Of a DNA stretch of 64,000 bases, positions 5,086 through 56,088 are shown piece by piece. Within the stretch, counting starts at the first letter, position 1. Each line of letters starts with the position of its first letter. The stretch lies in NCBI RefSeq assembly GCF_002286985.1, contig NZ_NSKC01000003.1, positions 186,001 to 250,000 of the forward strand. The letters are read 5' to 3'. This stretch comes from Halorubrum salipaludis (GTDB lineage: Archaea; Halobacteriota; Halobacteria; Halobacteriales; Haloferacaceae). A program made the position numbers and the translations under genes. The notes under the pieces were generated by a model, which saw nothing but the letters and a program-made list of their open reading frames with translations, ran no database searches and was not told the origin of the DNA.

Positions 5086-5121
5086 GCGGGTCGCGGTAGC
5101 GGGGCGGACAACTGCGATACC

Positions 5122-5502
5122 CTACGCCGGATCGAACGACCGGAGGATCGACGCGAGCGCGCTCGCGAGCTCCTCGAAGCGGTCGATGTCCATCGAGTCG
5201 GTCGTCACCCAGACCCCGTGGCCGTTGTTGATGACCCGCGTGAGGTAGCCGTTCTCGAACACGCGGACCGTGAACCGGTAGTCTCCGAGCTGCGTGTCCG
5301 CGTACAGCGACTGCGCGTGGAACCCGTGTCGCTCGCTCTCCGCGAAGCCGACGAGGTCGGCCGTCCGGCTGAGGTCGCTGCGGAGGTAGAGCTGTTCGAC
5401 GTCGTCCTCGGTGAAGTACGTGAGACTCCGCAGCTCGTCTCCGGTGGCGGTCCGCGCGGCGCTGAGCAGCTCCTCGGCGCGCTCATCCGGTGGGTGTGCC
5501 AT
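5122..5502 (-). CDS. Uncharacterised haloarchaeal protein
   Basis: 126 residues from the ATG at 5502. An alternative in-frame ATG at 5529 would add nine residues, and the choice is uncertain. Helical N-terminus (ERAEELLSAARTATGDELRSLTYF), then an alpha/beta region with the motif GYLTRVINNGHGVWVTTD and a C-terminal helix. It resembles a conserved haloarchaeal DUF of about 120-130 residues. No enzymatic motif or membrane segment is visible. It is divergent from the aglJ-type gene with 101 bases between starts. Confidence 0.65.
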   Translation of the reverse strand: MAHPPDERAEELLSAARTATGDELRSLTYFTEDDVEQLYLRSDLSRTADLVGFAESERHGFHAQSLYADTQLGDYRFTVRVFENGYLTRVINNGHGVWVTTDSMDIDRFEELASALASILRSFDPA

Positions 5503-5603
5503 GCTACCACGATCGATCGTCTGGTACATGAGCGTATGGGTGTCCGAAGCGGTTCCGGCCCGGAGGGACAGAGTTTAGCGACTCCCCCGACATCGACCGC
5601 GTA

Positions 5604-40622: not shown

Positions 40623-41683
40623 CAGTCCGCCGCGGCCCCCGCGTCGCCGCCGTAGTGATCCGCGAGGTCGAACCGCTCGGTGATGTCGTCGTCGCGGAAC
40701 TGTCGTTTCTTCTCCTCGATGTCGATGTCGTACAGCTCCGCGGCGTTTTCTCCCATTATCTTTTTCATCGTCTCGACGTCGAGCTCGACGCCGTACTCGT
40801 CTTTCTGCTCGTCGGTGAGCTCCGCGTTGATGACCTGCTCGACGAGCCAGTCGGGGTTCCACAGCGCGTAGTCGGAGCCGAACAGGACCCGGTCTTCGCC
40901 GAGCCAGAAGAGGAGCTCGCCCATGATATCGCCGAACTTCCGCTCGCGGTGGGTCGACATCGCGGAGGCGACCGCGAGCCCGCCGTAGACGTTGGGCTCT
41001 TGGGCGGCGATCCAACAGAAGTCGTCGAGCCGCGGCAGTCCGACGTGGTTGACGATGAAGTTGAGCTCCGGGAACGACGAGGCGGCGTCGTCGACGTCCT
41101 TCACGTCGAACGCGTCGCGGTTGAGCGGGCGGATCGTCGGCCCCTTGTGGGCGTTGATGTTCTCGATGCCGAGCTCCGAGCACTTCTCGAGGAACTCGAA
41201 GGCGTCGTCGCTGTCGAGCCGCCACCCCTTCGACTCGTCGCGCCACTCGGCGGTGTACAGTTTCACGCCGGGGATGTCGTACTCCTCCTTGAGGTGTTCG
41301 AGGTATCGGAGCCCTTCCTCGCCGTCACGGGGGTCGAAGCTCCCGTTCAAGACGAACCGCTCGGGGTACTCCTCCGCGAGCTCGGCGTTCTGCTCGGTCG
41401 TGTTGAACCCCTCGTCGTAGAACTCGTCGAGATACGTCGGCTGGAAGATCGCCATGTCGGCCGCTGCGTTCCCGAACAGGTCCTCGGTCATCCGGTCGGC
41501 GCCGTAATGTCGGTACTCGTCGATGTCCCACTGCTCCTCCTCCGGCGTGAACCCGGTGTGGTAGTCGTAGAAACACTGGAGGAACTGCTCGCCCCCCTCG
41601 TGGACGATGTTCTCCTGCCGTGCGTCCCACAGGTGGACGTGGCCGTCGATGACGAAGATCTCCTCGCCGTCCTTCTCGTACAT
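40622..41683 (-). CDS. Amidohydrolase 2 family TIM-barrel protein
   Basis: 353 residues. TIM-barrel hydrolase/decarboxylase superfamily: IDGHVHLWD as first metal site, GVKLYTAEWRD, INAHKGP (His), FIVNHVGLPRLDDF (His), and VLFGSDYALWNPD (Asp) near the end. These are the metal-ligand positions of ACMSD-type enzymes. Substrate unknown. First gene of a two-gene operon with the DUF59 protein, with a palindromic promoter element upstream and a divergent alcohol dehydrogenase 184 bases away. In actinobacterial propane-monooxygenase operons the same families stand together. Confidence 0.88.
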   Translation of the reverse strand: MYEKDGEEIFVIDGHVHLWDARQENIVHEGGEQFLQCFYDYHTGFTPEEEQWDIDEYRHYGADRMTEDLFGNAAADMAIFQPTYLDEFYDEGFNTTEQNAELAEEYPERFVLNGSFDPRDGEEGLRYLEHLKEEYDIPGVKLYTAEWRDESKGWRLDSDDAFEFLEKCSELGIENINAHKGPTIRPLNRDAFDVKDVDDAASSFPELNFIVNHVGLPRLDDFCWIAAQEPNVYGGLAVASAMSTHRERKFGDIMGELLFWLGEDRVLFGSDYALWNPDWLVEQVINAELTDEQKDEYGVELDVETMKKIMGENAAELYDIDIEEKKRQFRDDDITERFDLADHYGGDAGAAAD

Positions 41684-41690
41684 GCGAGTA

Positions 41691-41713
41691 TATGTGTGGA
41701 TTGCCCACACATA
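41691..41713. promoter_or_regulatory. Perfect 9+9 bp palindrome on the amidohydrolase promoter
   Basis: TATGTGTGG-N5-CCACACATA ends seven bases before the amidohydrolase start codon, between its TATA-like box and the expected transcription start. It is the longest perfect palindrome noticed in a promoter in this window. The position is that of an operator bound by a dimeric repressor. No copy was seen by the divergent dehydrogenase. Confidence 0.7.
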
Positions 41714-41722
41714 ACTATAAGG
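41713..41722 (-). promoter_or_regulatory. TATA-like box of the amidohydrolase operon
   Basis: CCTTATAGTT on the minus strand, centred about 34 bases before the ATG at 41683, puts the transcription start near 41691, at the edge of the palindrome. A leader of only a few bases follows. Confidence 0.55.
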
Positions 41723-41832
41723 ATCGTTCAGGATGGTTTTGTCCGGGTTCCGCGGACGCTCGCCATCGGTTCTCGCCCCTCGACGCGCCGGTTCGCGGTA
41801 GTCGCGACGGGTCCAGCGTTCTACCATAACGA

Positions 41833-41841
41833 ACGTTTATG
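41833..41841 (+). promoter_or_regulatory. TATA-like box of the alcohol dehydrogenase
   Basis: CGTTTATGA about 30 bases before the ATG at 41868; consistent with a leaderless or near-leaderless transcript divergent from the amidohydrolase operon. Confidence 0.5.
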
Positions 41842-41867
41842 ATGAAGGGTGCGAGAGAGTATAACAC

Positions 41868-42908
41868 ATGCAAGCCGCCAGGCTCCACGAGTACACGGAC
41901 GACATGAGCGAGGGACTCACCATCGACGAGGTCGAGCGCCCGGAGGCGACGGGCGCGGACGACGTGATCGTCGAGGTCGAGGGCGCGGGGTGGTGCCAGA
42001 CGGACAACCACATCATCGAGGGGATGTGGGCGGAGTACGTCCCGCAGGAGCTCCCGATGACGCTCGGCCACGAGAACGCCGGGACGGTCGTCGAGACGGG
42101 CGAGGACGTGGAGTTGGTCTCGCCGGGGGACCCGGTGATCTGTCACCCGGTCCAGACCTGCGGCACCTGTCGGCCCTGTCGGCTCGGCGAGACGATGTAC
42201 TGCGAGAACGACGCGTTCAACGGGCTCACCACCGACGGCGGCTTCGCCGAGTACCTCCACACCAGCGAGCGCTCGGTGATCCCCCTCCCGTCCGGCGTCG
42301 AGCCGATCGACATCGCGCCGCACGCCGACGCCGGCATCACGGCGTACCACGCCGCGAAGAAGGCGGTCGCCGACCTGAACCCCGGCGACCACGCGGTCGT
42401 CATCGGCGTCGGCGGGCTCGGCCACATCGGGCTCCAGTGCCTCGACGCGATGAGCGCGGCCCGCATCACCGCCGTCGACCTGAAGGAGTCGGCGCTGGAT
42501 CTGGCCGCGGGGTACGGCGCCGACCACCTCGTCAACCCGGGCGAGTCGGACGTTCCCGACGAGATCGAGGCGATCACCGACGGGACGGGCGCCGCACAGG
42601 TGCTCGACTTCGTCGGCGAGGACGTGACGACCGCCTACGCCCCCGACATCACCGCCGCGGGCGGCGACCACCACATCATCGGCTACGGCGGGCACGTCCA
42701 CGAGCCGGCGCAGGCGCTCGTGAACGGGGAGTTCTCGTTCGTCGGCAACATCGTCGGGCGGTACGCGGAGCTCCAGGAGCTCGTCGCGCTCGTCGAGCAG
42801 GGCGACGTCGACCTCCACACGAGCCGGTACGACCTCGGCGAGGTCAACGAGGTCGCCGAGAAGCTCGAACACCGCGAGATCGACGGGCGCGCCGTCATCA
42901 TGCCCTGA
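41868..42908 (+). CDS. Zinc-dependent alcohol dehydrogenase (MDR family)
   Basis: 346 residues. The catalytic zinc ligands C43 (GWCQTD) and H68-E69 (GHEN) and the structural zinc cysteines C98, C101, C104 and C112 are complete; the dinucleotide loop is GVGGLGHIG near residue 182, followed by an acidic residue at the strand end (VDLKES) favouring NAD(H). The substrate is unknown; secondary alcohol or aldehyde are possible. Divergent from the amidohydrolase-DUF59 pair. An alcohol dehydrogenase of this kind accompanies the same two families in propane-oxidation clusters. Confidence 0.92.
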   Translation: MQAARLHEYTDDMSEGLTIDEVERPEATGADDVIVEVEGAGWCQTDNHIIEGMWAEYVPQELPMTLGHENAGTVVETGEDVELVSPGDPVICHPVQTCGTCRPCRLGETMYCENDAFNGLTTDGGFAEYLHTSERSVIPLPSGVEPIDIAPHADAGITAYHAAKKAVADLNPGDHAVVIGVGGLGHIGLQCLDAMSAARITAVDLKESALDLAAGYGADHLVNPGESDVPDEIEAITDGTGAAQVLDFVGEDVTTAYAPDITAAGGDHHIIGYGGHVHEPAQALVNGEFSFVGNIVGRYAELQELVALVEQGDVDLHTSRYDLGEVNEVAEKLEHREIDGRAVIMP

Positions 42909-42927
42909 GCACGACACACTCGGGGCC

Positions 42928-43350
42928 ATGGACCTCCGCCGCTGGACGCCGTTCACGTTCGTCGCGCCCGCCCGGTACGTGGACCGCGACGACCGGTGGC
43001 GCGCCTTCGACATCGAGGAGTGGTCGGAGTCGGCGTACGACTGGACGCAGGACCCGTGGAACGGCGTCGGGGACTTCGCTAAGGAGCCGCGCGAGTGCGT
43101 CGACGCCGGCCGGGGGGACTGCGAGGACTATGCCTTGGTCGCGCTCTCGTGGGCCGTCGCTCACGACCGCGACGGGGTCGGACTCGGGTTCTGTTGGGAC
43201 CTCCCCTACCCGTGGCCGCGACACGTGATCGCCTTCGACGACGAGCGCGTGTACTCGTCGGGCGAGATCACCGAGGAGAGCGTCGACGAGTGGAAGGCCG
43301 ACTCGAAGTACGCGTTCGTGCTCAAGCGCCGCTTGGGAGACCCGTCGTGA
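42928..43350 (+). CDS. Transglutaminase-like cysteine peptidase-fold protein
   Basis: 140 residues. The catalytic layout of the transglutaminase-like fold is present: C65 in GRGDCEDYA, H99 in PWPRHVIAF and D104. The size resembles the minimal bacterial transglutaminase-like cysteine proteinases (BTLCP). No signal or membrane segment, so it acts in the cytoplasm. It starts 19 bases after the alcohol dehydrogenase stop and is probably co-transcribed. The substrate is unknown; amidase, protease and peptide-linking activities are all possible. Confidence 0.78.
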   Translation: MDLRRWTPFTFVAPARYVDRDDRWRAFDIEEWSESAYDWTQDPWNGVGDFAKEPRECVDAGRGDCEDYALVALSWAVAHDRDGVGLGFCWDLPYPWPRHVIAFDDERVYSSGEITEESVDEWKADSKYAFVLKRRLGDPS

Positions 43351-43579
43351 CCCGCTCGACGCGATCGTCCCGCAGTGACCGACCCAGTACGGTCGAACGG
43401 CGGAACGACCCTCCGTAGTTAAATATCTCGACGATGAGCCGTGACGTATGCGGGTGAAAATAACTACCATGGAAGTCGCTGTCGACCACGGCCGCCGGCG
43501 ACGCACGCGATCGCACGCCACCGCCCGTCCCGGCGCGTCTCGGGCGCGACCGGACGAGTCCGCTCCGCCGTGACCGACC

Positions 43580-44065
43580 ATGCCGTCGATCAACCTCTGG
43601 GAGGCCGTCCACGTCCCGTTCGACGTCATCCGTGACGGCTATCGGAGGCTTCGGAAGGCGCTGTTCACGAAACCGCGGCCGTCCGGTGAGTACTACGTGG
43701 TTGACGGGTCCGTCGCGGAGATCGAGGCGGCCCTCGGCGAGTACAGCTTCGCCCCGAACTGGGAATTCTCCTACCACAAACGCGGCGAGGTGATGAACCT
43801 CGCTCGCGTGGTACACGAACGCAACGCGGTCGACGGAACGACGTACCGCTGGTGGCAGACGCACCTCCGCGGCTGGCGCAACGACGACGGGCGGCTCGAG
43901 CTCCACGCGCACTGGGAGCTCGAACCGACAGAGAACGGGAACCCCCACATCGACGGCGTCGGCTTCGATTTCGACCGGGGAATGGCCACGTTGCGGTCGT
44001 TCCTCGACGAGGCCGACATCGAGTACGAGACGACGACGATCGAAGCCGAGCGCTCCGACGGCTGA
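43580..44065 (+). CDS. Uncharacterised haloarchaeal protein
   Basis: 161 residues; an in-frame stop nine bases upstream fixes the ATG at 43580. N-terminal amphipathic helix (VPFDVIRDGYRRLRKALF), then a strand-rich region with many aromatic residues (NWEFSYHKRGEVMNLARVVHE, YRWWQTHLRGW, HAHWELEPTENGNPH) and two C-terminal alpha/beta elements. Charged His/Trp positions could make a ligand site, but no family was recognised. A TATA-like TTAAATAT stands at 43420-43427, 150 bases upstream, which would give a long leader. Confidence 0.65.
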   Translation: MPSINLWEAVHVPFDVIRDGYRRLRKALFTKPRPSGEYYVVDGSVAEIEAALGEYSFAPNWEFSYHKRGEVMNLARVVHERNAVDGTTYRWWQTHLRGWRNDDGRLELHAHWELEPTENGNPHIDGVGFDFDRGMATLRSFLDEADIEYETTTIEAERSDG

Positions 44066-44168
44066 GGTCGGTCGGACGGTCGGCCGCCGTTCTCCGCCGC
44101 CGCGCCGGCGGCTACCGTCGGAGTCGGTCTGAGAGCGCGTAGTCCGCGGTCGCAGGCGCCCACGGAAG

Positions 44169-44177
44169 ATTTTTATC
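44169..44177 (+). promoter_or_regulatory. TATA-like box of the lipoprotein gene
   Basis: A TTTTTATCC run about 27 bases before the ATG at 44201, with no ribosome-binding site; typical haloarchaeal leaderless arrangement. Confidence 0.55.
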
Positions 44178-44200
44178 CCTCGTGTCGAATCTACGGGATT

Positions 44201-45613
44201 ATGGACCGCAGAGCCCTCCTCTCCGCGGTCGGCGGGTCCCTCGTCGCCCTCTCCGGATGCGTCGCGAACGACGCCGGCGCGCCCTCCTCCGCGAACGGGA
44301 CCGACGCCGACGGGAATCAATCCGACGACGCCGACGGGGACACATCTGACGACGCCGACGGCCAGGCTTCGTCGCTCGCCGTCGAGCTCCGGACCGTGCC
44401 GCACGTCGTCACCGCCTACGAGCCGTCGCCGAGCCGCGGGATCGATCCGGAGCACGTCGTTCCCGAGGCCGAGATCCCGGCCGCGCTGCGCGGGCCGCTC
44501 GACGAAGCGATCGACGGTCGGTTCGAGACGGGCGATCCCGACGACGCCCTGCTGGCCGCGGTCGACGAGTTCCGCGTCTACGACCGCGGCAGGCTGAAGC
44601 CGTACGTCGAGCTGGACGGAACGCGCTACGCGTTCGATCCGACCCTCCCGACGTTCACCGCGGAACTCGCCGACGAGGCGGCCGAAGGGTACGACGAGGA
44701 GCGGGTGCTGCGCGATGCGGGGCGAACGGACGACCTCGGCTCGGCGGCGGTCGAGACGTTCGTCGACGCGCTGACAGCGTACGGACCGAACGTGGCCCGC
44801 GGAGAGTACCGTCGCTGTGACCGCCCCGAGGCCCTGGACGGGTTCCTCGAGGAGTACGACTACCTGGAGGACGGGCGCGGCGTCTCCCGGATCGAGACGA
44901 GCGTCGAGAACGAGGCCCCGCCGTACGCGATCGCGGCGCGCGAGCTGACCGAGGCGGACATGTGGGACCGACCCGTCGTCGACGCGTCGGCCCTCGACGA
45001 CGCGGTGCTGACGTTCTTCGAGCGCGCGGTGGCCTCGGACCATCGAGCCCCCGCGCTGCCGGGCGACGACCGCACCCAACGCTTCACCGACGACGTGCCG
45101 GACGCCTACGGCGATCTGGCCGCCGAGTACGACGACCCGCCTTACTACCGGATCGACGGCGTCGTGTACGACATCCGCGTCGGCGAGTCGCGGTACGACC
45201 GGCTCCCGGTGACGGTTTCGGTCGCCGCGAGCGAGGGCGCGTCCCGGGAGTTCGCGCTCTCGGTCGCGCCGGCGCCCGAGAGCGCCGACGGCGACGCCGA
45301 GGGTCCGTACACGTTCACGAGCCGGGGCGCGCTGCCGAGCGCCCTCTGGGCGTTCCACGAGGGCGAGCGGGAGCGCCTGGAGATCGTCGAGACCGAGGGG
45401 ATCGAGGGACCGCGGCCGAGGCGACCCGACGGACAGGCGCTGGAGTCGCTGACCGGGCACGAGGAGATGACCGCGACGTACGCGGTCCCGGAGTCGCTCC
45501 CCGCGGGGACGTACGTGAGCCGCGGGCTCTTCGGCGTCTCGTGGGGAGTTCCCGGTCAGACGCCCGACGAACACGGGTCCTATCCGTTCGAGCTGGAGAT
45601 CGAGATCGCGTGA
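44201..45613 (+). CDS. Large Tat-type lipoprotein of unknown function
   Basis: 470 residues. Twin-arginine at the N-terminus (MDRRALLSAVGG) and lipobox LSGC give a lipid-anchored extracellular protein, followed by a Asp/Ala/Ser-rich spacer (residues ~22-55). The mature part has two halves with similar sub-patterns (KPYVELDGTRYAFDP and PYYRIDGVVYDIRVGESRYDR), suggesting related beta-domains, and a beta-sandwich-like C-terminus ending in FELEIEIA. No catalytic site recognised. Probably a cell-surface binding protein. Confidence 0.75.
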   Translation: MDRRALLSAVGGSLVALSGCVANDAGAPSSANGTDADGNQSDDADGDTSDDADGQASSLAVELRTVPHVVTAYEPSPSRGIDPEHVVPEAEIPAALRGPLDEAIDGRFETGDPDDALLAAVDEFRVYDRGRLKPYVELDGTRYAFDPTLPTFTAELADEAAEGYDEERVLRDAGRTDDLGSAAVETFVDALTAYGPNVARGEYRRCDRPEALDGFLEEYDYLEDGRGVSRIETSVENEAPPYAIAARELTEADMWDRPVVDASALDDAVLTFFERAVASDHRAPALPGDDRTQRFTDDVPDAYGDLAAEYDDPPYYRIDGVVYDIRVGESRYDRLPVTVSVAASEGASREFALSVAPAPESADGDAEGPYTFTSRGALPSALWAFHEGERERLEIVETEGIEGPRPRRPDGQALESLTGHEEMTATYAVPESLPAGTYVSRGLFGVSWGVPGQTPDEHGSYPFELEIEIA

Positions 45614-45699
45614 CTGCGCTCCGGGGACGGCAGAGCGAACCGGCGGCCACGAGACCGCGACCGCTAACTCCTTGTGACCGCGGCCCACAGCGATCGTCC

Positions 45700-46905
45700 A
45701 TGGACGAGAACGGTGCCGACGCCGCCGGCCCCGCGGGCGCCGCCGATTCCCCGACTGATCCGCTCGCAGACGAGGACGTCTTCCGCGTGCTCGGGCCGGA
45801 CGGGAGTCCCCTGCCGGGGGCGACGGTCCCGGACCTCTCGGACGACGAGTTCCGGGCGATCTATCGCGACCTGGTCGTCACGCGCCGCTTCGACGAGCGC
45901 GCCGTCAGCCTCCAGCGACAGGGACGGATCGGGACGTACGCCCCGTGTGCGGGCCAAGAAGGCTCCGCGGTCGGGTCGACCCACGCGCTCGCGGACCGCG
46001 ACCTAATCTCCTACCAGTACCGCGAGCACGGGGCGGTCGTGGTCCGGGACCTCCTCGCCGAGTACCTCCCCTACTGGATGGGCCACGAGTCGGGGACCGA
46101 GGCGATCGCCGACGGCAACGTCTTCCCCCTCAACATCGGGATCGCGGCGCACCTCCCGCACGCGGTCGGCGCCGCGTGGGCGTTCGACTACCGGGACGAG
46201 GACCGGGTCGTCGCCTGTCACTTCGGCGACGGCGCGACCAGCGAGGGCGACTTCCACGAGGCGATGAACTTCGCGGGCGTGTTCGACGCGCCGACGCTCT
46301 TCTGCTGTCACAACAACGGCTGGGCGATCTCGGTCCCCGAAACGCGCCAGACCGCGAGCGAGACGTTCGCGCAGAAGGCGGAGGCGTACGGGTTCGAGGG
46401 CGTCCGCGTCGACGGGATGGACCCCCTCGCGAGCTACGCGGTCACGCGTGCGGCGGCCGAGCGGGCGCGAGCTGACCGAAACACCGATGACGGAAGCGGC
46501 GGGGACGGCGGGGACGGCGACGGGGGACAGGGGGACGCGTCGCGGCCGACCCTCATCGAGTTCGTCGAGTACCGGTTCGGCGCGCACACGACCGCGGACG
46601 ACCCCTCCGCCTACCGCGACCCCGACGACGTGGACCCGTGGCGCGCGCTCGACCCCCTCGACCGCATGGAGGCGTTCCTCCGCGAGACCGGCCGGATCGA
46701 CGACGAGGGCGTCGCCGCGATCCGCGAGGAGGCGGACGGGGTCGTCGCCGACGCGATCGACTTCGCGGAGTCGGTCGACCCCGACCCGAGCGACATGTTC
46801 GACTATGCGTACGCCGAGCTCCCGCCCGAGGTGCGGCGTCAGCGCGACGAGCTGCTCGCGGCCGTCGAGGAGCACGGCGAGGAGGCGTTCCGGCGCGAGG
46901 AGTAG
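45700..46905 (+). CDS. 2-oxoacid dehydrogenase E1 alpha subunit, without E1 beta
   Basis: 401 residues. Thiamine-diphosphate enzyme subunit: the ThDP motif GDGATSEGDFHEAMNFAGVFDAPTLFCCHNN is complete, and RFDERAVSLQRQGRIGTYAPCAGQE and YRFGAHTTADDPSAYR are typical of the alpha chain of PDH/BCKDH-type enzymes. A glycine/aspartate-rich insert (about residues 265-285) is unusual. The beta chain and E2/E3 are not adjacent, so the enzyme cannot be completed from this locus; the substrate (pyruvate, branched-chain or other 2-oxoacid) is open. Confidence 0.87.
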   Translation: MDENGADAAGPAGAADSPTDPLADEDVFRVLGPDGSPLPGATVPDLSDDEFRAIYRDLVVTRRFDERAVSLQRQGRIGTYAPCAGQEGSAVGSTHALADRDLISYQYREHGAVVVRDLLAEYLPYWMGHESGTEAIADGNVFPLNIGIAAHLPHAVGAAWAFDYRDEDRVVACHFGDGATSEGDFHEAMNFAGVFDAPTLFCCHNNGWAISVPETRQTASETFAQKAEAYGFEGVRVDGMDPLASYAVTRAAAERARADRNTDDGSGGDGGDGDGGQGDASRPTLIEFVEYRFGAHTTADDPSAYRDPDDVDPWRALDPLDRMEAFLRETGRIDDEGVAAIREEADGVVADAIDFAESVDPDPSDMFDYAYAELPPEVRRQRDELLAAVEEHGEEAFRREE

Positions 46906-46920
46906 GCCGTCCGCCTGCGC

Positions 46921-48243
46921 TTATAAATACTTGCCAGCCGCGCTCGCCGCCGTCCGGCCGCTCTCCAAGGCGCCCTGAATCGACGACCACTCCGTGTAGT
47001 CGCCGGCGAGGACGACCGGGCCCTCCGGGTCGTCGGGATCGGGGAGGTCGGCGTGGACCCCCGGCGGCTGCGCGAACTGCGCGAACCGGACCCGGTGGGT
47101 GTCGACGGTCTCCAGCCCGTCGAAGTCGCGGCCGGGGAACCACGCCTCCAGGGCGTCGCGGACGTCGTCGCGGAGGCCGGCGGCGGGCCGATCAAGTGGC
47201 GCCTCGCCGAGGAAGGTCGCGGCGAGCAGCGCGCGGTCGTCGGGGACGTACTCGGGCGCCACCTCGGACATCGGGACCACGGCGTTGGGCGAGCCGTCCG
47301 CAGCGTTGAGCAGGATCCGCTTACCCGTCTCGAACGACTCGCCGGCGGGGAGCGCGTACCACCCCGTCACGTTCGGCACGCCCTCTGTGGGGATCGACTC
47401 GACGCCCGTGAGCCGCCGGGCTTCGGGCGGCGTGGTCGCGACGACGACCGCGTCCGTCTCGCGGGTCGAGCCGTCCGCGAGCTCGACGGTGGCGCCCTCG
47501 GCGTCGCCGCGGCCGGTCCGGAACGGGATCCGGCCCTGCCCCGCAGTCCGGACCGACGCCACGTCCTCGCCCGTCTCGATCGCCACGCCGGCCTCGCGGG
47601 CGCGGGCCGCGAGCGCCTCGGGGACCGCGGCCATCCCCTCCGCGGGAACGCCGATCGCGCCGCGGCTCATCGCGCGGAACGTGTACTCGAAGACGTGCTT
47701 CGAGGTCGAGAGGCTCCGGTCGAGGGTGATCCCGCCGTAAAAGGGCTCGACGAAGTTCTCGACGTAGTCGTCGGCGAACCCCCAGTCGCGGAGGTACTCG
47801 CGGATCGAGGCGTCGGGGCCCGCGAAGAAGTCGTCCTCGTCGCGCTCCGCGAGGTCGTGTCGGAGCGCGAGCGTCCGGAGCTTGTCCGAGAACGAGACCT
47901 CGTCGTTCAAAAGGGAGGCGAGTGCGGCCCGCGGGTCGCGCAGGGGGTCCGAGAGGACCGAGCGCGATCCCGGTCGGCAGATCGTCGCGCCCGGTGCGAA
48001 GGTGCGGAGGTTCAGGGCGTCGGCGGCGTCGGGGCCGAGCTCGCGCTCGACCGCCGGGTAGCTCGAGAAGAGCACCTGAAAGCCGCGGTCGAGCGTGAAC
48101 CCGTCGACGGTCTCGGTCCGCACGCGCCCGCCGACCGCGGGCCGTCGCTCGTACAGCGTCACGTCCGCTCCCGCCTCGGCGAGTCTGGCCGCCGCGACGA
48201 GCCCCGCGAGCCCGCCGCCGACGACGGTGGCGTCTCCGTTCAT
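46921..48243 (-). CDS. FAD-dependent amine-oxidase/phytoene-desaturase-like oxidoreductase
   Basis: 440 residues. N-terminal FAD motif VVGGGLAGLVAAARLAEAG with ERRPAVGGRVRTE, and a C-terminal FAD-site segment near VVLAGDYTEWSSIQGALESGRTAA. This fold is used in carotenoid desaturases, protoporphyrinogen oxidases and amine oxidases, and the sequence does not match CrtI or HemG closely. Substrate unknown. Convergent with the E1 alpha gene (15 bases apart). Confidence 0.87.
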   Translation of the reverse strand: MNGDATVVGGGLAGLVAAARLAEAGADVTLYERRPAVGGRVRTETVDGFTLDRGFQVLFSSYPAVERELGPDAADALNLRTFAPGATICRPGSRSVLSDPLRDPRAALASLLNDEVSFSDKLRTLALRHDLAERDEDDFFAGPDASIREYLRDWGFADDYVENFVEPFYGGITLDRSLSTSKHVFEYTFRAMSRGAIGVPAEGMAAVPEALAARAREAGVAIETGEDVASVRTAGQGRIPFRTGRGDAEGATVELADGSTRETDAVVVATTPPEARRLTGVESIPTEGVPNVTGWYALPAGESFETGKRILLNAADGSPNAVVPMSEVAPEYVPDDRALLAATFLGEAPLDRPAAGLRDDVRDALEAWFPGRDFDGLETVDTHRVRFAQFAQPPGVHADLPDPDDPEGPVVLAGDYTEWSSIQGALESGRTAASAAGKYL

Positions 48244-48264
48244 ACGGGGGAATTCGGGGTGCGT

Positions 48265-48274
48265 GCTTATAAGC
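48265..48274 (-). promoter_or_regulatory. TATA-like box of the FAD oxidoreductase gene
   Basis: A palindromic GCTTATAAGC centred 26 bases before the ATG at 48243. Its symmetry means it could serve either strand; the spacing fits a leaderless minus-strand transcript. Confidence 0.55.
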
Positions 48275-48340
48275 GGCGGCGGGTCGGAACGATCTGTTTC
48301 GGTGAGAACACCTTTGTTCGGACCTACCGCATGTCACTGT

Positions 48341-48907
48341 GTGGATCGAGTCGCTCTCGGCCAGTGGCTGTCTCTCGCTCTCGTCCCGCTCGGCGTCGGG
48401 CTGTTCGTCGGCGATTCGGGCGTGGGAACCGCCCTCCCCGTGTCGGTCGCGCTGCTCGGACTGGCGGGGTTTCGGCTGTCGGAGCGATTGTTCGCCGCCG
48501 GTCCCGACGCGTCCGGGAGTGTCGTGGACACGCGGACCGCCGACCTCGGTCAACTCGGCGCAGCACTTCTCCTGTTCGCGCTCCTCACCGCTGTTCTCGG
48601 TCGGTTCGAAGCAGTCTCGGAGATCGGCATTCTCCTTCGGTCTCCAGGCGCGAGACCCCTCGCGGTCGTCGCCGTCGCGGTCGGGGCGTCCCTCGGCGGC
48701 GGGATGGCGGTTCTCACGTTCCGGAGGGACCGGCTTCGGGACGTGAGTCGGACGATCTGGTTCCGAGCGATCGGCGGGTCAGTCACCTTCGGGACGTACC
48801 TCGCGCTTCTCGTCGCTCGGCCGCCGGCAGCCCTCCTGTACGGCGTGGCATACGGCGTGAGTCGGCTGGTCGCGCTCGTCCTGTTGCCCGCCTCCTCGCG
48901 GTGGTGA
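48341..48907 (+). CDS. Polytopic membrane protein of unknown function
   Basis: 188 residues from a GTG at 48341. Five or six hydrophobic stretches (about 7-25, 27-43, 64-83, 96-115, 140-160, 165-185) joined by short polar loops. The gene has good GC-rich haloarchaeal codon use. No family recognised. The start is uncertain; the frame is open further upstream but that part overlaps the FAD oxidoreductase and has no hydrophobic pattern. Confidence 0.6.
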   Translation: MDRVALGQWLSLALVPLGVGLFVGDSGVGTALPVSVALLGLAGFRLSERLFAAGPDASGSVVDTRTADLGQLGAALLLFALLTAVLGRFEAVSEIGILLRSPGARPLAVVAVAVGASLGGGMAVLTFRRDRLRDVSRTIWFRAIGGSVTFGTYLALLVARPPAALLYGVAYGVSRLVALVLLPASSRW

Positions 48908-49024
48908 GGGTTCGTCGCTACCGGTTACTCAGTCGCGACTGTGGGTCCGCATCGATCGCAAAGCCGATCGATGTTGAAAACGCGGTCGAAGCCCTATCCG
49001 CCCGGTAGCATGGCGTTGCTGTCG

Positions 49025-49032
49025 TTTATAAG
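49025..49032 (+). promoter_or_regulatory. TATA-like box in the gene-free stretch
   Basis: TTTATAAG in a stretch with no gene. It is nearly symmetric, so either strand could be read. In the plus direction it would start a transcript near 49055 through the hairpin region. Confidence 0.45.
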
Positions 49033-49270
49033 TGGAAATCGGACAGAGACACCGCAAAAGACTCGGCCGCTTGAGAGGATGCGATCAACAATCTCGCGGT
49101 GAAGGCCTCCAAAGCCCCAGCCGCGACGACTCGCGCACCTCGTTGCGCGCTTCAGTCGCTCGCTTCGCTCGCTCCTTCCAGTGCTTACGTCGGTGTGCTT
49201 CGTCCTCGCAGCTGCCCCTTTGAGTCCTACCCGACCGCAACCGCCCCGCACCTCACACCTCCCCAGCCTC

Positions 49271-49303
49271 GTCAGTCGCCTCCGCTTCGCTCCGGCGACT
49301 GAC
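49271..49303. repeat. Inverted repeat with 10-bp perfect stem
   Basis: GTCAGTCGCC (49271-49280) and GGCGACTGAC (49294-49303) pair perfectly around a 13-base loop. It is one of the strongest stem-loops noticed outside genes in this window. Confidence 0.8.
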
Positions 49304-49323
49304 TCCCTCGCGCGGCGCTGTTC

Positions 49324-49340
49324 GCGCCTTAAAAAGGCGC
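49324..49340. repeat. Inverted repeat with 7-bp stem and AAA loop
   Basis: GCGCCTT-AAA-AAGGCGC. The short loop, A/T run and position suggest a terminator-like hairpin or part of a repeat element. It is not followed by a T run on the plus strand, so classical termination is unproven. Confidence 0.7.
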
Positions 49341-49432
49341 TCACAGGCGCGCGCCACCGCACCACCTCCATCACTAGGTCATCGTGAGCCCTGAGAGGGA
49401 AGCGATTAGTCGCCGCCGCCGAAACGTCGGGT

Positions 49433-50659
49433 ATGGAGTCGACGGAGACGACGACGGCGTTCCGCGGGCTGGAGAGTCGCGCGTCCGGTCGCGTCCACGA
49501 GACGGCCGACCCGACGACGGTGTCGGCCGACGAGCAGGCGCGGGGGCTCGACCCCGCCTACGACTACGGCGCGGTCGACCCCGAGACGCTGCTCGGGTCG
49601 CCGCGGGACGGACCGGCGGGGACGGGCCGCGGGCACTGGCGCTTCGACGCCCTGCTCCCGTTCCCGGCCGACGCCGCGATCTCGGCGGGCGAGGGCGCCA
49701 CGCCGCTCGTCCCGACCGAGCGGCTGGCGGACGAGCTCGACGTCGACGCGGTGTACGTCAAAGACGAGGGGCGCAACCCCACTGGCACCGTCCTCGACCG
49801 CGGGCTCTCGGTCGCGCTCACCGCGGTCGCAGCGCGGGCGGAGGCGGGCGAGGACGTGGAGCCGCTCGCGTGCGCGAGCCCCGGCAACGCCGGGCAGTCG
49901 ATGGCGGCGTACGCGGGTCGGGCCGACCTGCGCTCGTACGCGTTCGTCCCCTCTCGGTGCGCGTTCTCGAACAAGGCGATGACGAACGTCCACGGCGGCG
50001 ACATGCGCGTGGTCGGCGGGCGGTTCCCGGACGCGGCCGACGCGGTCGACGAGCAGCTGGAGACGGAGTACACCGACCTCGCCGAGTTCGCGACGCCGTA
50101 CCGCCACGACGGCGTGAAGACGCTCGCGTTCGAGCTGGTCGCGGACCTCGGCGACGCGCCCGACGTGGTCGTCGTCCCGACCGGCTCCGGCGAGGTCGTC
50201 GCCGGGGTGTACAAGGGGTTCGCGGAGCTGGAGCGGGTCGGCGCGATCGACGCGGTTCCGAAGGTCGTCGCGGCGCAGGCCGCGGGCTGCGCGCCGATCG
50301 CGGCCGCGGTCGAGCGCGGCCTCGACGAGCCGGAGCCGTGGGAGACGCCGGACACGATCTGCGGCGAGCTGGAGATCGCCGACCCCGCGGGCGGCGCCGC
50401 CGCGGTCGAGGCGGTGCGGGAGAGCGGCGGGACCGCGGTGGGCGTCGAGGACGAGGACATCCTCGCGAGCGCGGTCGCGGTCGCCCAGAACGAGGTGATG
50501 GAGATGGGCGCCACCGGGGGTGCCGCCCCCGCCGGCGCCTGGGCGCTCAAGGAGGACGGCTTCTTCGACGGCGACGAGACGGTGGTCCTGATCAACAGCG
50601 ACGCCGGGCTCAAGACGCCGGACGTGCTACGCAGCCACCTGATGGGACAGGGTATTTGA
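49433..50659 (+). CDS. Threonine synthase-like PLP-fold protein lacking the PLP lysine
   Basis: 408 residues of the threonine synthase/serine dehydratase-type fold II family: AGEGATPLVPTERLA at the start and YVKDEGRNPTG. The motif that should read PTGSFKDRG reads PTGTVLDRG, so the Schiff-base lysine is replaced by L121. The GN segment is PGNAGQSMAAYAGR and the phosphate loop PTGSGEVVAG, both drifted. It may be a pseudoenzyme or a binding protein, since PLP chemistry without lysine is unlikely. The rest of the frame is intact and well conserved in length. Confidence 0.85.
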   Translation: MESTETTTAFRGLESRASGRVHETADPTTVSADEQARGLDPAYDYGAVDPETLLGSPRDGPAGTGRGHWRFDALLPFPADAAISAGEGATPLVPTERLADELDVDAVYVKDEGRNPTGTVLDRGLSVALTAVAARAEAGEDVEPLACASPGNAGQSMAAYAGRADLRSYAFVPSRCAFSNKAMTNVHGGDMRVVGGRFPDAADAVDEQLETEYTDLAEFATPYRHDGVKTLAFELVADLGDAPDVVVVPTGSGEVVAGVYKGFAELERVGAIDAVPKVVAAQAAGCAPIAAAVERGLDEPEPWETPDTICGELEIADPAGGAAAVEAVRESGGTAVGVEDEDILASAVAVAQNEVMEMGATGGAAPAGAWALKEDGFFDGDETVVLINSDAGLKTPDVLRSHLMGQGI

Positions 50660-50705
50660 ATAGCGCGTGACGCCCCCGCGGTGACCTCGACGCCGCGCGG
50701 GGAAC

Positions 50706-50713
50706 CGTTTTTA
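50706..50713 (+). promoter_or_regulatory. TATA-like box of the GNAT gene
   Basis: CGTTTTTA about 28 bases before the ATG at 50737; a leaderless-type arrangement. Confidence 0.45.
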
Positions 50714-50736
50714 CGTCGCCCCGCGTACGTGCATCC

Positions 50737-51327
50737 ATGTACGTCCGCGACGCCAAGAACCGTGACGAGGCGTGGTTACTGGACGCGATCGAGCAGCTGG
50801 GGCTCGACGACGTCGCCTTCCGGTCACGGGACTACGTGATCGCGGTCGACGAGGAGTCGGGCGACCGGGCCGGGTTCGGCCGGCTCCGCCTGCATCGGGG
50901 CGACGACGAGGACACCGAAAACCGGATCGAACTCACCGGGATCGGCGTCCTCCCGGAGTGGCGGGGACGCGGCGTCGGGGCGCACGTGGTCGAGCGCCTC
51001 GTCGACACCGCGGCCGCGGACCGGTTCGAGACGGTGTACGTGCTCACCGATCAGCCCGAGTACCTGACCCAGTTCGGCTTCGAGGAGGTCGACACCGACG
51101 ACCTCCCGGACGCGCTCTCGGACCGGCTCGTGGAGAAGCGCGAGTTCCTCGGCGGGGGCGTGGTCGGCCTGCAGCTGGCCACCGACGACTTCGAGATGCC
51201 CGACCGGTTCCGCGAGGCGTTCAAGGCCGCCGAGCCGGCGGACGCGGCGGACGATACGACCGAGTCGCCCGAGGACTTCGGGATCGACCCCGAGTCGGCG
51301 ACGTACAAGTACGACACGGGGCGCTGA
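50737..51327 (+). CDS. GNAT family N-acetyltransferase
   Basis: 196 residues. The acetyl-CoA-binding motif A is visible as GIGVLPEWRGRGVGAHVVERLV (RGRGVG), followed by YVLTDQPEYLTQFGFEEV, the typical end of the GNAT core. The last ~60 residues form an extra acidic C-terminal tail. The acceptor substrate is unknown. No functional partner is obvious. Confidence 0.88.
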   Translation: MYVRDAKNRDEAWLLDAIEQLGLDDVAFRSRDYVIAVDEESGDRAGFGRLRLHRGDDEDTENRIELTGIGVLPEWRGRGVGAHVVERLVDTAAADRFETVYVLTDQPEYLTQFGFEEVDTDDLPDALSDRLVEKREFLGGGVVGLQLATDDFEMPDRFREAFKAAEPADAADDTTESPEDFGIDPESATYKYDTGR

Positions 51328-51417
51328 GAGGGGCTCGCGAGGGACTGACGGGCGGCGGCCGTCCCCGAGACTGACCGCGATCCGACCGCTTATCGGCCCG
51401 CCGGTCGACGCCCCCGT

Positions 51418-51846
51418 ATGGACCTGATCGAGGTCGCGCGCGACGCGCTCGACGACGCGCACGTCCCGTACTCCGAGTACCGCGTCGGCGCCGCGCTCCG
51501 GACCGCCGACGGCACCGTCTACACCGGCTGTAACATCGAGAACGCCAACTACTCCAACAGCCTCCACGCCGAGGAGGTCGCGCTCGCGGAGGCGGTGAAG
51601 AACGGCCACCGCGAGTTCGACCGGATCGCCGTCACGTCGGGCGTCCGCGACGGCGTCACTCCCTGCGGGATGTGCCGGCAGTCGCTCGCGGAGTTCGCGG
51701 CCGACGACCTCGTCGTCGTCTGCGACGAGGGCGACGGCGAGACCAGCGAGTACACGCTCGGCGAACTGCTCCCGAACACGATCTCGGAGGGGACCCTCGA
51801 CGACGCGAGAGCGACGGGCGACGCGCGGGACGCCGGCGGGGACTGA
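51418..51846 (+). CDS. cdd: Cytidine deaminase
   Basis: 142 residues. Zn-dependent deamination of cytidine to uridine. The HAEEVAL motif carries the zinc ligand and the catalytic Glu; PCGMCRQ carries the two Cys ligands; NIENANYSNSLHAEE is the substrate-binding segment. The size fits the tetrameric homologues. Uridine phosphorylase lies 7 kb downstream, so the two steps of pyrimidine nucleoside breakdown are both encoded in the window. Confidence 0.95.
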   Translation: MDLIEVARDALDDAHVPYSEYRVGAALRTADGTVYTGCNIENANYSNSLHAEEVALAEAVKNGHREFDRIAVTSGVRDGVTPCGMCRQSLAEFAADDLVVVCDEGDGETSEYTLGELLPNTISEGTLDDARATGDARDAGGD

Positions 51847-51885
51847 ACCGCTGAGCCGGTCGGCGCCCGGTGCTCCGTCCCCCGC

Positions 51886-53097
51886 TCACTCGGCCGGGGA
51901 GGCGGTCGCGTCGGGGGCGTCGGCGCCGGGCTCCTCGCCGTCGGCGCCGGGCTCCTCGCCGTCGGCGCCGGGCTCCTCGCCGTCGGCGCCGGTCCGATCC
52001 TCGTCGGCGCCGGCGGCCGACTCCGGCTCGTCGCCGTCCGTCCAGTCTCCGACGCGCTCGGCGACCCGCCGGCGGTTCACCTCGCCGACGCGGTCCGCCA
52101 CGTCGTCCACCATCTCGAAGAGGTCCTCACGGACCGGGCTCTCCGGGTCCCGTACCGACGGCCCGTCGGAGCCCTCGGAGTCGAAGTCAGGGTGAACGGG
52201 GAGCCGCGAGAGGACCGGCACGCCGTAGTCGTCGCGGATCTCGTCGCCGCCCCCCTCGCCGAAGACGGCGTGGGTGTCGCCGCACTCGGGGCACCGGAAC
52301 GCGCTCATGTTCTCGACGACGCCGAGGACGGGCGCGTCGTGCTCGTCGAACAGCCGGAGCCCCTTGCGCGCGTCGGCGACGGCCATCTCCTGCGGCGTCG
52401 TGACGATGACGACGCCCGCGATCGGCAGCGACTGGAGCAGGTTCAGCGAGGCGTCCCCGGTGCCCGGCGGCAGGTCGACGACGAGGTAGTCGAGCCGGCC
52501 CCACTCGACCTCGTTGACGAACTTCATCATCACGTTGTTCACCATCGGCCCGCGCATCACCGCCGGCTGGTCGCCGTCGGGCATCAGGTGGTCGGTGCTC
52601 ATCACGCGCACGCCGTCGGAGGCCGGCGGGACGATCTCCTCGTTCGGCGTGACGCCCGGCTCGTTCTCCGTCGGGAGCAGCCGCGGGACGTTCGGTCCGT
52701 GCACGTCGGCGTCGAGGATGCCGACGCGCGCGCCGCGGTCCTTCAGCCCCGCGGCGAGGTTCGCGGCGACGGTCGTCTTCCCGACGCCGCCCTTGCCGGA
52801 GGCGACGGCGATCACGTTGCGGACGCCGGGGAGCGCGTCCGTCTCGAAGCCGTGTTCCTCCCGGAACTCGGCGCGGAGCTCCGGCTCGAGCCCCGCGTCT
52901 TCGACGGCCTCGCGGACCGCGTCGCCGATCTCCATCTCGGCGGGCGCGTGCGGGGCGTTGAACGCGAGCGTCACCTCGGCGGTGCCGTCGTCGATCGTCA
53001 CGTCGTCGACGAGCCCCATCGAGACGATGTCGTCGTCGTTGAGCGGGTCTTCGACTGCGGCGAGTCGATCGGTCAGTTCGCTTTCGGTGAGGGTCAT
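51886..53097 (-). CDS. Mrp/NBP35-type iron-sulfur carrier P-loop ATPase
   Basis: 403 residues. Residues 1-85 are a DUF59-type domain, residues ~95-340 the P-loop ATPase: SGKGGVGKTTVAANLA (deviant Walker A) and DADVHGPN, followed by the CPEC motif (FRCPECGDTHAVFG) that binds a bridging [4Fe-4S] cluster. It is a scaffold or carrier for Fe-S clusters. The C-terminal acidic tail consists of GADGEEP repeats and is probably disordered. Confidence 0.93.
   Translation of the reverse strand: MTLTESELTDRLAAVEDPLNDDDIVSMGLVDDVTIDDGTAEVTLAFNAPHAPAEMEIGDAVREAVEDAGLEPELRAEFREEHGFETDALPGVRNVIAVASGKGGVGKTTVAANLAAGLKDRGARVGILDADVHGPNVPRLLPTENEPGVTPNEEIVPPASDGVRVMSTDHLMPDGDQPAVMRGPMVNNVMMKFVNEVEWGRLDYLVVDLPPGTGDASLNLLQSLPIAGVVIVTTPQEMAVADARKGLRLFDEHDAPVLGVVENMSAFRCPECGDTHAVFGEGGGDEIRDDYGVPVLSRLPVHPDFDSEGSDGPSVRDPESPVREDLFEMVDDVADRVGEVNRRRVAERVGDWTDGDEPESAAGADEDRTGADGEEPGADGEEPGADGEEPGADAPDATASPAE
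51928..51990 (-). repeat. Three in-frame 21-bp tandem repeats in the Mrp tail
   Basis: Three units of 21 bases encode GADGEEP, and they are flanked by partial copies at both sides. As with the other repeats in the window, the unit length keeps the frame. Confidence 0.92.
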
Positions 53098-53219
53098 GGT
53101 GAGAGCGGTCAGGTGGCGTCCGGCGGTCGATTCGGGCGCTCGGCGTCAGATTCGAGCGGGAAAAGGTTAGTTCGAACGCGGATTCTCAGCCCGTGCCACT
53201 GCGGGGAGCGGGGATCGCG

Positions 53220-53507
53220 TCAGAAGAACACGACCCCGATGATGATCGTCGCCACGAACAGGCTCCCCCACAGCACGGTGGTGAGGCCGGCGAGGTAGCC
53301 GAGTCCGAGCAGGTTCGCGAACCGGTCGCTCGGGTCCCCGATGAACCACGCCGCGACCATCGCGTACACCGGCAGGAGGACGATCCCGAAGATGAGGTAC
53401 GTCCCCGGCCCGACGAACGGGAGCGTGTACTCGGGCGACGAGGCGAGCGGCACCGCGGCGGGCCCCGACGCGAGCGCGGCGACGGCGGACGCGGCGAGCG
53501 GCGTCAT
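53220..53507 (-). CDS. Small membrane subunit of an FeS/NrfD redox complex
   Basis: 95 residues with two to three hydrophobic helices (about 33-55, 65-90). The N-terminus looks like a weak signal or helix. No known family was recognised; position is the main evidence, since its start overlaps the NrfD stop by 4 bases and it ends the operon. Probably a structural membrane subunit. Confidence 0.7.
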   Translation of the reverse strand: MTPLAASAVAALASGPAAVPLASSPEYTLPFVGPGTYLIFGIVLLPVYAMVAAWFIGDPSDRFANLLGLGYLAGLTTVLWGSLFVATIIIGVVFF

Positions 53508-54826
53508 GCGTCCACCTCCTCGTGGTCTTCGATCGCGTGCAGTTCAACGACCGGGATCACCTTCGAGACGACGAGGAAGAACAGCACGACGATACCCACC
53601 GTCCCGAGCACGGCCGAGATCTCGACGGGCGAGGGGATGTACGCGCCGGGCACCCCGGCGTACAGGTCGAAGTGGGCGTGCTGGAGCCCCTCGACGACGA
53701 ACAGCACCTTCTCGGCGAGCGTGCCGAACAGGACGGCCACGGACATGCCGACGAGGACGCGAATGTCGTACAGCTCGGGCCGCAGCGAGGTCGCGAACGC
53801 GTACAGCATCGCGAGCGCGACGAGGCCGATCGCGACCCAGTACAGCGGGGTCGCGATCTTCACCTCGGTCGCGTGCTGGAGCGTCGTCGGCGCGGCGAAG
53901 ATCCCCGTGATCACCTGCTGGAGCTGGAGCCACAGGAAGATCAGGCTGAAGAAGCCGAGCCACTTCGCGAGCCCCTGGAAGACGGTGTCCGGAATGAGCT
54001 CGTCCCAGCCGTACGCGTACCGGAACGCCGCCGAGATGATGATGATCCCGCTGACCGCGGAGGTCAGGGCGATCGAGAGGAACGACGGCCCCTGGACGCC
54101 GCCGTGCCAGCCGGCCATCGACGGCAGCAGCGAGAACAGCCACGGGATCACCCCGCCGTGGAGCAACAGCGGCGCCATGATGATGATCGCGAAGGCGATC
54201 CACCAGACCATCCGCTCGACGACCTGGTCTTCCTTCTCGGTGTAGCCGACCGTGATGACGCGGTACACCGGTTCGAGGACGTTCGGAAGGCGGTCGCGGA
54301 GCCGGTGGACGTCGTACCGGATCGTGAGCGCGAGGTACGTCGCGGTCAACACGAAGTAGGCGGTGATGACGGTCACGTCCCACATCAGCGGCGACCACTG
54401 GACCCGCGTCGGCCACGCGGGGAGGACGCTCGTCACCAGTCGGTCGGGCCGGCCGACGTGGATGAGGATGAAGACGCCGGCGCAGGTCAGCGCCGCGATC
54501 GTCAGCAGCTCCGCGAGGCGCGCGACGGGCTGGTAGGTGTCCATCCCGAGCAGCCGCACCGCGGCCGAGAGGATGATCCCGCCGTGCGCGATCCCGACCC
54601 ACCAGATGAACGCGCCGATGTACAGCCCCCACGGCACGCCGCCGCCGGAGCCCCAGTCGGCGAGGTTCGTGACGATCAGGCCGTGCTGGAGCTGCTGGAC
54701 GTAGAAGAACAGCCAGACGCCGATCAGTCCGAAGGCGACCGCCAACGCGGCCAGGTAGCGCTTCGTGAACGTCTGGATCGGCCGGACGAGCGTCTCCCGG
54801 TCGACCCCCGTCACGTCGACGCTCAC
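53504..54826 (-). CDS. nrfD: NrfD/PsrC-type membrane quinone-binding subunit
   Basis: 440 residues, about ten transmembrane helices. NrfD/PsrC family proteins exchange electrons between the quinone pool and an iron-sulfur subunit, without cofactor. Family features include WWVGIAHGGIILSAAVRLL and the quinone-site region of helices near residue 85-130. Start overlaps the ferredoxin stop by 4 bases. Translational coupling with the flanking genes indicates one complex. Confidence 0.9.
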   Translation of the reverse strand: MSVDVTGVDRETLVRPIQTFTKRYLAALAVAFGLIGVWLFFYVQQLQHGLIVTNLADWGSGGGVPWGLYIGAFIWWVGIAHGGIILSAAVRLLGMDTYQPVARLAELLTIAALTCAGVFILIHVGRPDRLVTSVLPAWPTRVQWSPLMWDVTVITAYFVLTATYLALTIRYDVHRLRDRLPNVLEPVYRVITVGYTEKEDQVVERMVWWIAFAIIIMAPLLLHGGVIPWLFSLLPSMAGWHGGVQGPSFLSIALTSAVSGIIIISAAFRYAYGWDELIPDTVFQGLAKWLGFFSLIFLWLQLQQVITGIFAAPTTLQHATEVKIATPLYWVAIGLVALAMLYAFATSLRPELYDIRVLVGMSVAVLFGTLAEKVLFVVEGLQHAHFDLYAGVPGAYIPSPVEISAVLGTVGIVVLFFLVVSKVIPVVELHAIEDHEEVDA

Positions 54827-56088
54827 GCCTCTTCACCCCCGTCGGCGCCTCGATCGAGGACCTCCTTGCGGTTGTCGGTGATCCCCATGTCCTCGTAGGC
54901 GACGGGACCCTCAACCTGCTCGGCGTGCGGCGAGGGCTCGTTGCCGATGAACTGGACGTTCGGCTCGGTGCCGCGTTCCTCCATCAGCTTGAACGTGGAC
55001 ACGGTGTGTTCCTTCCGGTTCGGGAACTCCTCGAGGTCGTTCTCCTGTCCGGAGCGGTACTCTTCGAGGTGCTGGTTCGGCGGGCTCTCCGGGTCGTTGA
55101 GGTCGCCGAAGTGGATGGCGTCCATGGTGCACGCCTCCTCGCAGGCGGTGGTGCCGACCTTCTCTTCGCCCATCTGGCCGTCCTGCCGGTCGACGCAGAA
55201 GGTGCACTTGCCCATCACGCCCTCCGGCGGCCGAGAGCCGACCCAGCGCCCGCGGTCGTCGATCTGGTGGTCGTCGTCGATCTCGGACTCGGGCACGTCC
55301 GGCTCGCCCCACTGGAAGTAGTTGACGCCGTACGGACAGGACACCTCGCAGTACCGGCAGCCGATACAGATGTCGTAGTCCGTCAGGACGAGCCCGTCCT
55401 CCTCGCGGGTGTGGCGGGCCCCGACCGGACACACCTTCGTGCACGGCGAATCCGTGCAGTGCTGGCAGGTCCGCGGCAGGAAGTTCTCCTGCTCGCCCTG
55501 GCCTTCGTCTTCGAACGCGAAGACGTACATCCAGTTGGCGCCCTCGGAGAGGTTGTGCTCCTGGTCGCACGCGACCATGCAGGCGAGACACCCGTCGCAG
55601 TTGTTGAGGTTGATCGTCATCCCCCAACGAGTGCCCTCGCCGTCGTCGCCGCCGCCGGCGCCCGCGGCGCCGTCGTCGCCGCCGGTGGTCGCGCCGGCGC
55701 TCCCGAGCCCGCCGAGCCCGAGCGCGGCGGCCGCGGCGCCCTTCTTCATCACCGATCGCCGCGACTCGCTCTCGTCGCCGTCAACGCCCCGCAGGGTCTC
55801 CCCGATGCCCTCGAACGCCCCTTCGATGCGGTCGATGGCGTTCACGTCTCCCGAGTCGACCTCGTCGGGATCTGGCAAGTCGACCTCGCGGTCGTCGACG
55901 TCGAACTCCTCGAGGATCCGGTCGTGATAGCGACGGTAGAACTCGACCTCCGAGAGATCGCCCGCGGACACCTTCTGGGCGTCCCGAGCCATCTCCATGC
56001 CGAGATCCGCGTCGTACCCGGTCTCCTCGAGGAGCCGCCTGTGCTCCTCGTCCGGTGTCGCGTACATCGATTCGTCGTCGGTGCTCAT
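54823..56088 (-). CDS. Four-cluster [4Fe-4S] ferredoxin subunit with long N-terminal extension and Tat motif
   Basis: 421 residues. Cysteine motifs for four clusters are visible in order: CDGCLACMVAC, CQHCTDSPCTKVCP, CIGCRYCEVSCP and CTFC...ACEEAC. A Tat-type RR (R110-R111) with an alanine/glycine helix follows an acidic N-terminal domain of about 105 residues that resembles the haloarchaeal ferredoxin N-terminal domain. The cluster domain is thus predicted outside the membrane with NrfD as anchor. The ATG at 56088 is chosen because translation from further upstream gives Gly/Pro-rich residues of no family character. Confidence 0.85.
   Translation of the reverse strand: MSTDDESMYATPDEEHRRLLEETGYDADLGMEMARDAQKVSAGDLSEVEFYRRYHDRILEEFDVDDREVDLPDPDEVDSGDVNAIDRIEGAFEGIGETLRGVDGDESESRRSVMKKGAAAAALGLGGLGSAGATTGGDDGAAGAGGGDDGEGTRWGMTINLNNCDGCLACMVACDQEHNLSEGANWMYVFAFEDEGQGEQENFLPRTCQHCTDSPCTKVCPVGARHTREEDGLVLTDYDICIGCRYCEVSCPYGVNYFQWGEPDVPESEIDDDHQIDDRGRWVGSRPPEGVMGKCTFCVDRQDGQMGEEKVGTTACEEACTMDAIHFGDLNDPESPPNQHLEEYRSGQENDLEEFPNRKEHTVSTFKLMEERGTEPNVQFIGNEPSPHAEQVEGPVAYEDMGITDNRKEVLDRGADGGEEA

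Follow-up and report, generated by a model that had tools for sequence, protein, structure and literature searches.

The closest described relatives of the protein reported here are the threonine synthases (ThrC; structures 1uim, 2zsj and 6nmx). In the Thermus thermophilus enzyme (1uim), we take Lys61 to be the residue that forms the Schiff base, as is established for the family. LCB1 and the antizyme inhibitor, two PLP-enzyme homologues without such chemistry, belong to PLP fold types other than II. Both LCB1/SPTLC1 of serine palmitoyltransferase and the ornithine decarboxylase antizyme inhibitor are eukaryotic, have known partners and work without PLP catalysis of their own (PMC2748086). In contrast, the family described below is archaeal, has fold type II and has lost its lysine recurrently; searches of the open-access literature turned up neither a lysine-less threonine-synthase family nor a fold-type-II pseudoenzyme.

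The protein shares with ThrC the whole predicted fold (Z 47, 2.0 Å), 31-34% identity, the PTGxxxDRG frame, the Asn loop and the equivalents of R160 (R224) and K116 (K181). It differs in having no Schiff-base lysine, a changed PLP-phosphate loop, Glu-Phe in place of N154-S155, an acidic pocket and a new C-terminus with the sequence RSHLM. Closer relatives are the lysine-keeping haloarchaeal members (L067, L071 and L088, for instance), which are 50-54% identical in sequence, have the same C-terminus and conserved neighbours, and fall with the window protein into a single family in the tree; unlike it, they carry PTGTFKDRG and PTGGGVG, evolve more slowly and have no acidic pocket residues. Almost all haloarchaeal genomes searched contain the family, whose sequences closely resemble those of genes annotated as threonine synthase, an annotation that would be wrong for most members.

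A threonine-synthase-like gene with an altered lysine motif

The window, a stretch of 64,000 nucleotides from Halorubrum salipaludis, contains the gene and motifs listed here.

49433..50659, + strand, stop included: threonine-synthase-like ORF, lysine-less, 408 aa (open frame; Pfam PALP 8e-62; fold match Z 47)
49778..49804, + strand: lysine motif without lysine, PTGTVLDRG, residues 116-124 (translation; 1uim alignment)
49793..49795, + strand: codon 121, CTC = Leu, at the Schiff-base lysine position, K61 of 1uim (1uim alignment; orthologue column)
49877..49897, + strand: SPGNAGQ, residues 149-155, equivalent of the substrate-carboxylate/Asn loop, STGNTAA of 1uim (G151 invariant; Q155 in 161/165 orthologues)
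50177..50197, + strand: PTGSGEV, residues 249-255, former PLP-phosphate glycine loop (PTGGGVG in lysine-keeping proteins)
50630..50647, + strand: C-terminal RSHLMG motif (RSHLM in 49/49 lysine-keeping proteins and 67/67 copies of the window's family)

PALP is the sole Pfam family in the ORF and its whole 295-position model is covered, so that Pfam and the predicted structure both place the protein in the PALP fold. It nevertheless scores below the equivalog thresholds of TIGR00260 (133.4 bits against a cut-off of 167.1) and PRK08197 (257 against 303). The Schiff-base lysine of PTGSFKDRG is absent, and so is the glycine/asparagine PLP-phosphate loop of the GNAGN type, which reads TGSGEV with an acidic residue inside. 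The first-pass annotation, made from this sequence alone, had reported an intact frame in which leucine replaces the lysine, with altered phosphate and substrate loops. All of this was confirmed: Leu121 falls on Lys61 of 1uim in a HMMER alignment with no gaps nearby, the 408 codons are open, TGSGE replaces the glycine-rich loop and E218/F219 stand against N154/S155 of 1uim.

Distribution of the lysine among haloarchaeal orthologues

A class-wide search of 194 haloarchaeal genomes gave matches throughout, with a full-length frame in almost all, and 165 orthologues were read. Column 121 holds Lys in 49/165 and another residue in 116/165, with 14 residue types altogether: among the lysine-less proteins, Leu occurs in 55, Thr and Ala in 16 each, Arg in 9, Val in 8, Phe and Tyr in 3 each, and Ile, His, Glu, Gly, Gln and Asp once each. 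The first-pass annotation had proposed such an alignment as a check on whether the Leu is conserved in a clade; it is the absence of the lysine that proves clade-wide. In the window's family (Haloferacaceae) none of the 67 intact copies read has the lysine, and the lysine-less state was seen in named loci of Haloferax, Halorubrum, Haloquadratum, Halobellus, Haloplanus and Natronorubrum, as well as in most of the Natrinema loci read. Since all 67 family copies and 116 of the 165 orthologues across the class are without the lysine, a sequencing or alignment accident can be excluded.

The surrounding residues behave otherwise. T117, D122, R123, G151 and R224 are present in all 165 orthologues and K110 and K181 in 164 each. 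In a 94-row alignment the entropy of column 121 lies at the 89th percentile, and K110, D111, T117, D122, R123 and G124 do not vary.

History of lysine loss and its coupling to the PLP-phosphate loop

In a densely sampled tree, the lysine-keeping proteins make up a basal grade, and the bulk of the lysine-less ones nest in one derived clade; L081 and L263, each in a lysine-keeping genus, are further, independent losses of recent date. A single clade for all lysine-less proteins, and with it a one-time loss, is rejected by the AU test (p-AU 1.1e-4); once L081 and L263 are freed, the constraint is no longer rejected (p-AU 0.785). Taken together, the tree and these two tests require at least three losses from an ancestral lysine, one old loss in most lineages and two recent ones. 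A Dollo count of at least 13 losses was dropped, as better sampling gave one large lysine-less clade whose few lysines sit on degraded loops. These are found in L078 and L267 (f3/g61) and in L128, L136 and L219 (Natrinema or f4 g23), where the loops beside the lysine at 121 read PLEGTEG or PTGAGTG; the lysine there is either retained or regained.

The GGG loop is intact in 46/49 lysine-keeping proteins but in only 1/116 lysine-less ones. The pairing is clearest within two genera: in g37, L081 has T121 with GSG, whereas L084 and L252 have K121 with GGG, and in g22, L263 has R121 with GDG against seven species with K and GGG. When lysine and loop were counted on the tree as independent pairs, three of five pairs agreed and none disagreed, an underpowered sample that is not significant by the sign test, so the coupling of lysine loss to loop change is suggestive on this count.

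A rebuilt acidic pocket in the Haloferacaceae family

Comparison of the 67 intact family copies with the 49 lysine-keeping proteins gave ten columns that either are fixed in the family on another residue than in the lysine-keeping proteins or have become acidic. The acidic gains number four: E254, within the former glycine loop, and the three listed here.

50084..50086, + strand: E218, on N154 of 1uim (62/67 in the family; T in lysine-keeping proteins)
50366..50368, + strand: E312, on A240 of 1uim (67/67 in the family; G in 48/49 lysine-keeping proteins)
50600..50602, + strand: D390, on the residue after T317 of 1uim (D/E in 67/67; G in 43/49 lysine-keeping proteins)

E254 is present in 67/67 family copies, is V in lysine-keeping proteins and falls on G190 of 1uim; all four were placed on 1uim by alignment and hand count. 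We take the positions of N154, G190, A240 and the residue after T317 to line the PLP/substrate pocket in threonine synthase structures, with position 390 adjoining the residue that pairs with PLP N1. Asn152, which corresponds to the PLP-contacting Asn87, is kept in 65/67 family members, and Thr or Ser stands at 389 in 55/67. As lysine-less proteins outside the family are without most of the four gains, the rebuilt pocket is specific to Haloferacaceae. Carboxylates at these pocket positions disfavour binding of the PLP phosphate or of a phospho-amino acid. An earlier suggestion that the protein binds an amino-acid phosphate is thus not supported for the window's clade, in which the phosphate-holding positions are now acidic (E254, E218 and D390).

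Selection and predicted fold

Within the genus, median dN/dS over nine genomes comes to 0.262 for the lysine-less gene, against 0.143 for their canonical ThrC. The gene is clearly under purifying selection, somewhat relaxed, and the comparison of orthologues that the first-pass annotation had called for agrees with its view that the gene is not decaying. Near-invariant columns number 41 across all groups and 95 within the window's family. An AF2 model built from the 94-row alignment has a pLDDT of 96.0 and a pTM of 0.94, and the predicted fold matches B. subtilis ThrC (6nmx) with a VIA Z of 47.1 and 2.0 Å over 328 residues. A single-sequence AF2 model of L263 (pLDDT 36) was discarded.

In one Halorubrum genome (G038, locus L055, at about 3744) a one-base indel near codon 244 breaks the frame of the lysine-less gene, and may be either a real lesion or an assembly error. 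The gene is not strictly essential, given this frameshift in a member of the genus, and G038 also has a second family copy elsewhere in the genome. Searches of G162 and G002 gave no family match at E 1e-90.

Gene neighbourhood and canonical threonine synthase

One neighbour is conserved beside lysine-keeping and lysine-less copies alike, in about 107/167 loci from many genera.

46921..48243, - strand: divergent FAD amine-oxidoreductase gene, upstream neighbour (Pfam Amino_oxidase 4e-54; synteny)

Downstream, most other genera have a DtxR-type metal regulator, a GDT1 divalent cation/proton antiporter and a LysE-type exporter, again flanking both kinds of copy. These common neighbours support the orthology of lysine-keeping and lysine-less genes. 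In the window, a GNAT acetyltransferase and a cytidine deaminase stand in their place, and the contig has its DtxR and LysE genes some 80 kb further upstream. A Mrp-type ATPase-like ORF, named by its sequence, occupies 51886-53097 (- strand) and ends in tandem GADGEEP repeats. An Rfam scan of 40000-56000 gave no match.

Canonical ThrC, with PTGSFKDRG and GNAGN, was found in 59/59 genomes searched, so threonine synthesis should not need the lysine-less protein. In Haloferax volcanii, a transposon mutant of thrC3 (HVO_2969) is restored by glycine, serine and threonine together (PMC4300041). Identity of thrC3 with the lysine-less gene was not established. The Haloferax lysine-less gene adjoins the DtxR/GDT1/LysE cluster; HVO_0541, considered as a neighbour in H. 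volcanii, is citB1.

Function of the lysine-less protein

The window protein is a PLP-enzyme homologue without the PLP lysine and is maintained by selection rather than being a pseudogene (dN/dS 0.26, invariant columns). We consider it probable, on these comparisons of sequences, that it is a natural fold-type-II PLP pseudoenzyme, without PLP catalysis and kept for a putative binding, regulatory or scaffold role. The same idea in the first-pass annotation gains support from the clade-wide loss, the loss of the loop glycine, purifying selection, the lack of a compensating lysine and the separate ThrC in every genome searched. The gene descends from a lysine-bearing haloarchaeal threonine-synthase paralogue. 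On at least three occasions the lysine has disappeared, and the PLP-phosphate glycine loop with it, and the PLP internal aldimine can no longer form. Selection has kept the fold, K110, D111, D122, R123, G151, K181, R224, C286 and the RSHLM C-terminus, while four acidic residues have rebuilt the former active site in the family of the window protein. The ligand of such a pocket would most likely be neither PLP nor a phosphorylated amino acid, but perhaps a cation, an amine or an amino acid in free form. The protein may act as a binding, regulatory or scaffold partner; a regulator role is possible. More specifically, and rather speculatively, acidic side chains might line the Haloferacaceae pocket as a binding site for a cation, whether metal ion, polyamine or amino acid. 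The protein would then be a sensor, or a regulatory partner, linked to the genes that adjoin it in other genera, namely the metal regulator, the divalent-cation exporter and the LysE-type exporter. If so, nature would have turned a fold-type-II PLP enzyme into a protein that binds something other than PLP.

A special case of the pseudoenzyme reading, to which we give a modest chance by analogy with LCB1 in serine palmitoyltransferase (PMC2748086), is a dead subunit that pairs with canonical ThrC or a lysine-keeping copy and tunes or stabilises it. The presence of ThrC in 59/59 genomes and a fold kept at high predicted confidence would suit such a partner, but the lysine-less gene shows no linkage with thrC, and ThrC shares only 32-39% identity with the window protein. 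Loss of the lysine alone does not exclude PLP ligands, since lysine-replaced relatives have been crystallised with PLP-ligand aldimines: the structure matches include, by their titles, the lysine mutants TrpB K87T (2tys) and OASS K41A (1d6s). With N152 mostly kept and K110 and K181 each in 164/165 orthologues, the protein might still bind PLP non-covalently, K110, K181 or a substrate amine doing the aldimine chemistry. We regard this as improbable. The two lysines are just as conserved in lysine-keeping proteins, where they align to K50 and K116 of 1uim, and are thus not the substitutes that the first-pass annotation had named as grounds against a pseudoenzyme; the 94-row alignment shows no new conserved lysine in lysine-less proteins; and the loop glycine goes with the lysine, acidic side chains now occupying the phosphate positions.

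Slow decay of a redundant paralogue, briefly kept by chance, would account for the recurrence of the loss, for a dN/dS above that of ThrC, for the frameshifted copy of G038 beside its second family copy and for the two genomes without a match. We hold it to be very unlikely, given a full-length frame in almost all 194 genomes, the low dN/dS, the near-invariant columns in all groups and in the family, and acidic residues kept in 67/67. Loss of the catalytic lysine recurs in this family, can be dated and can be set against living orthologues that keep the lysine, in some cases within one genus, which opens to direct test the question of which features stay conserved once a PLP enzyme loses its cofactor.

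Paralogues and atypical copies

An initial assumption of one copy per genome was wrong, as a second family match turned up in 23/70 family genomes. Five of these second copies were read, all from Halorubrum (L272-L276, at about 5000-6230 of each locus): all five keep the lysine and are without the RSHLM C-terminus. They are 70-73% identical to L067, branch at the base of the entire family, and adjoin a 6-phosphogluconate-dehydrogenase-like gene and, in L275, also glycine-cleavage genes, all named by sequence reading. Genome G000 has two further lysine-bearing threonine-synthase-like genes and no second family copy at the threshold used for the 70 genomes. Outside Halobacteria, the closest relative of the lysine-keeping type found is L277 (G285), a ThrC paralogue with PTGTFKARG and PTGGGTG. 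The copy of Halobellus captivus ZY8 (L147) is Halorubrum-like, with 80% identity to the window protein, unlike that of Halobellus captivus ZY21 (L108), and its sequence suggests that the ZY8 genome is likely mislabelled or mixed. One canonical ThrC match (G003:C1:25345-26568) carries a single in-frame TGA.
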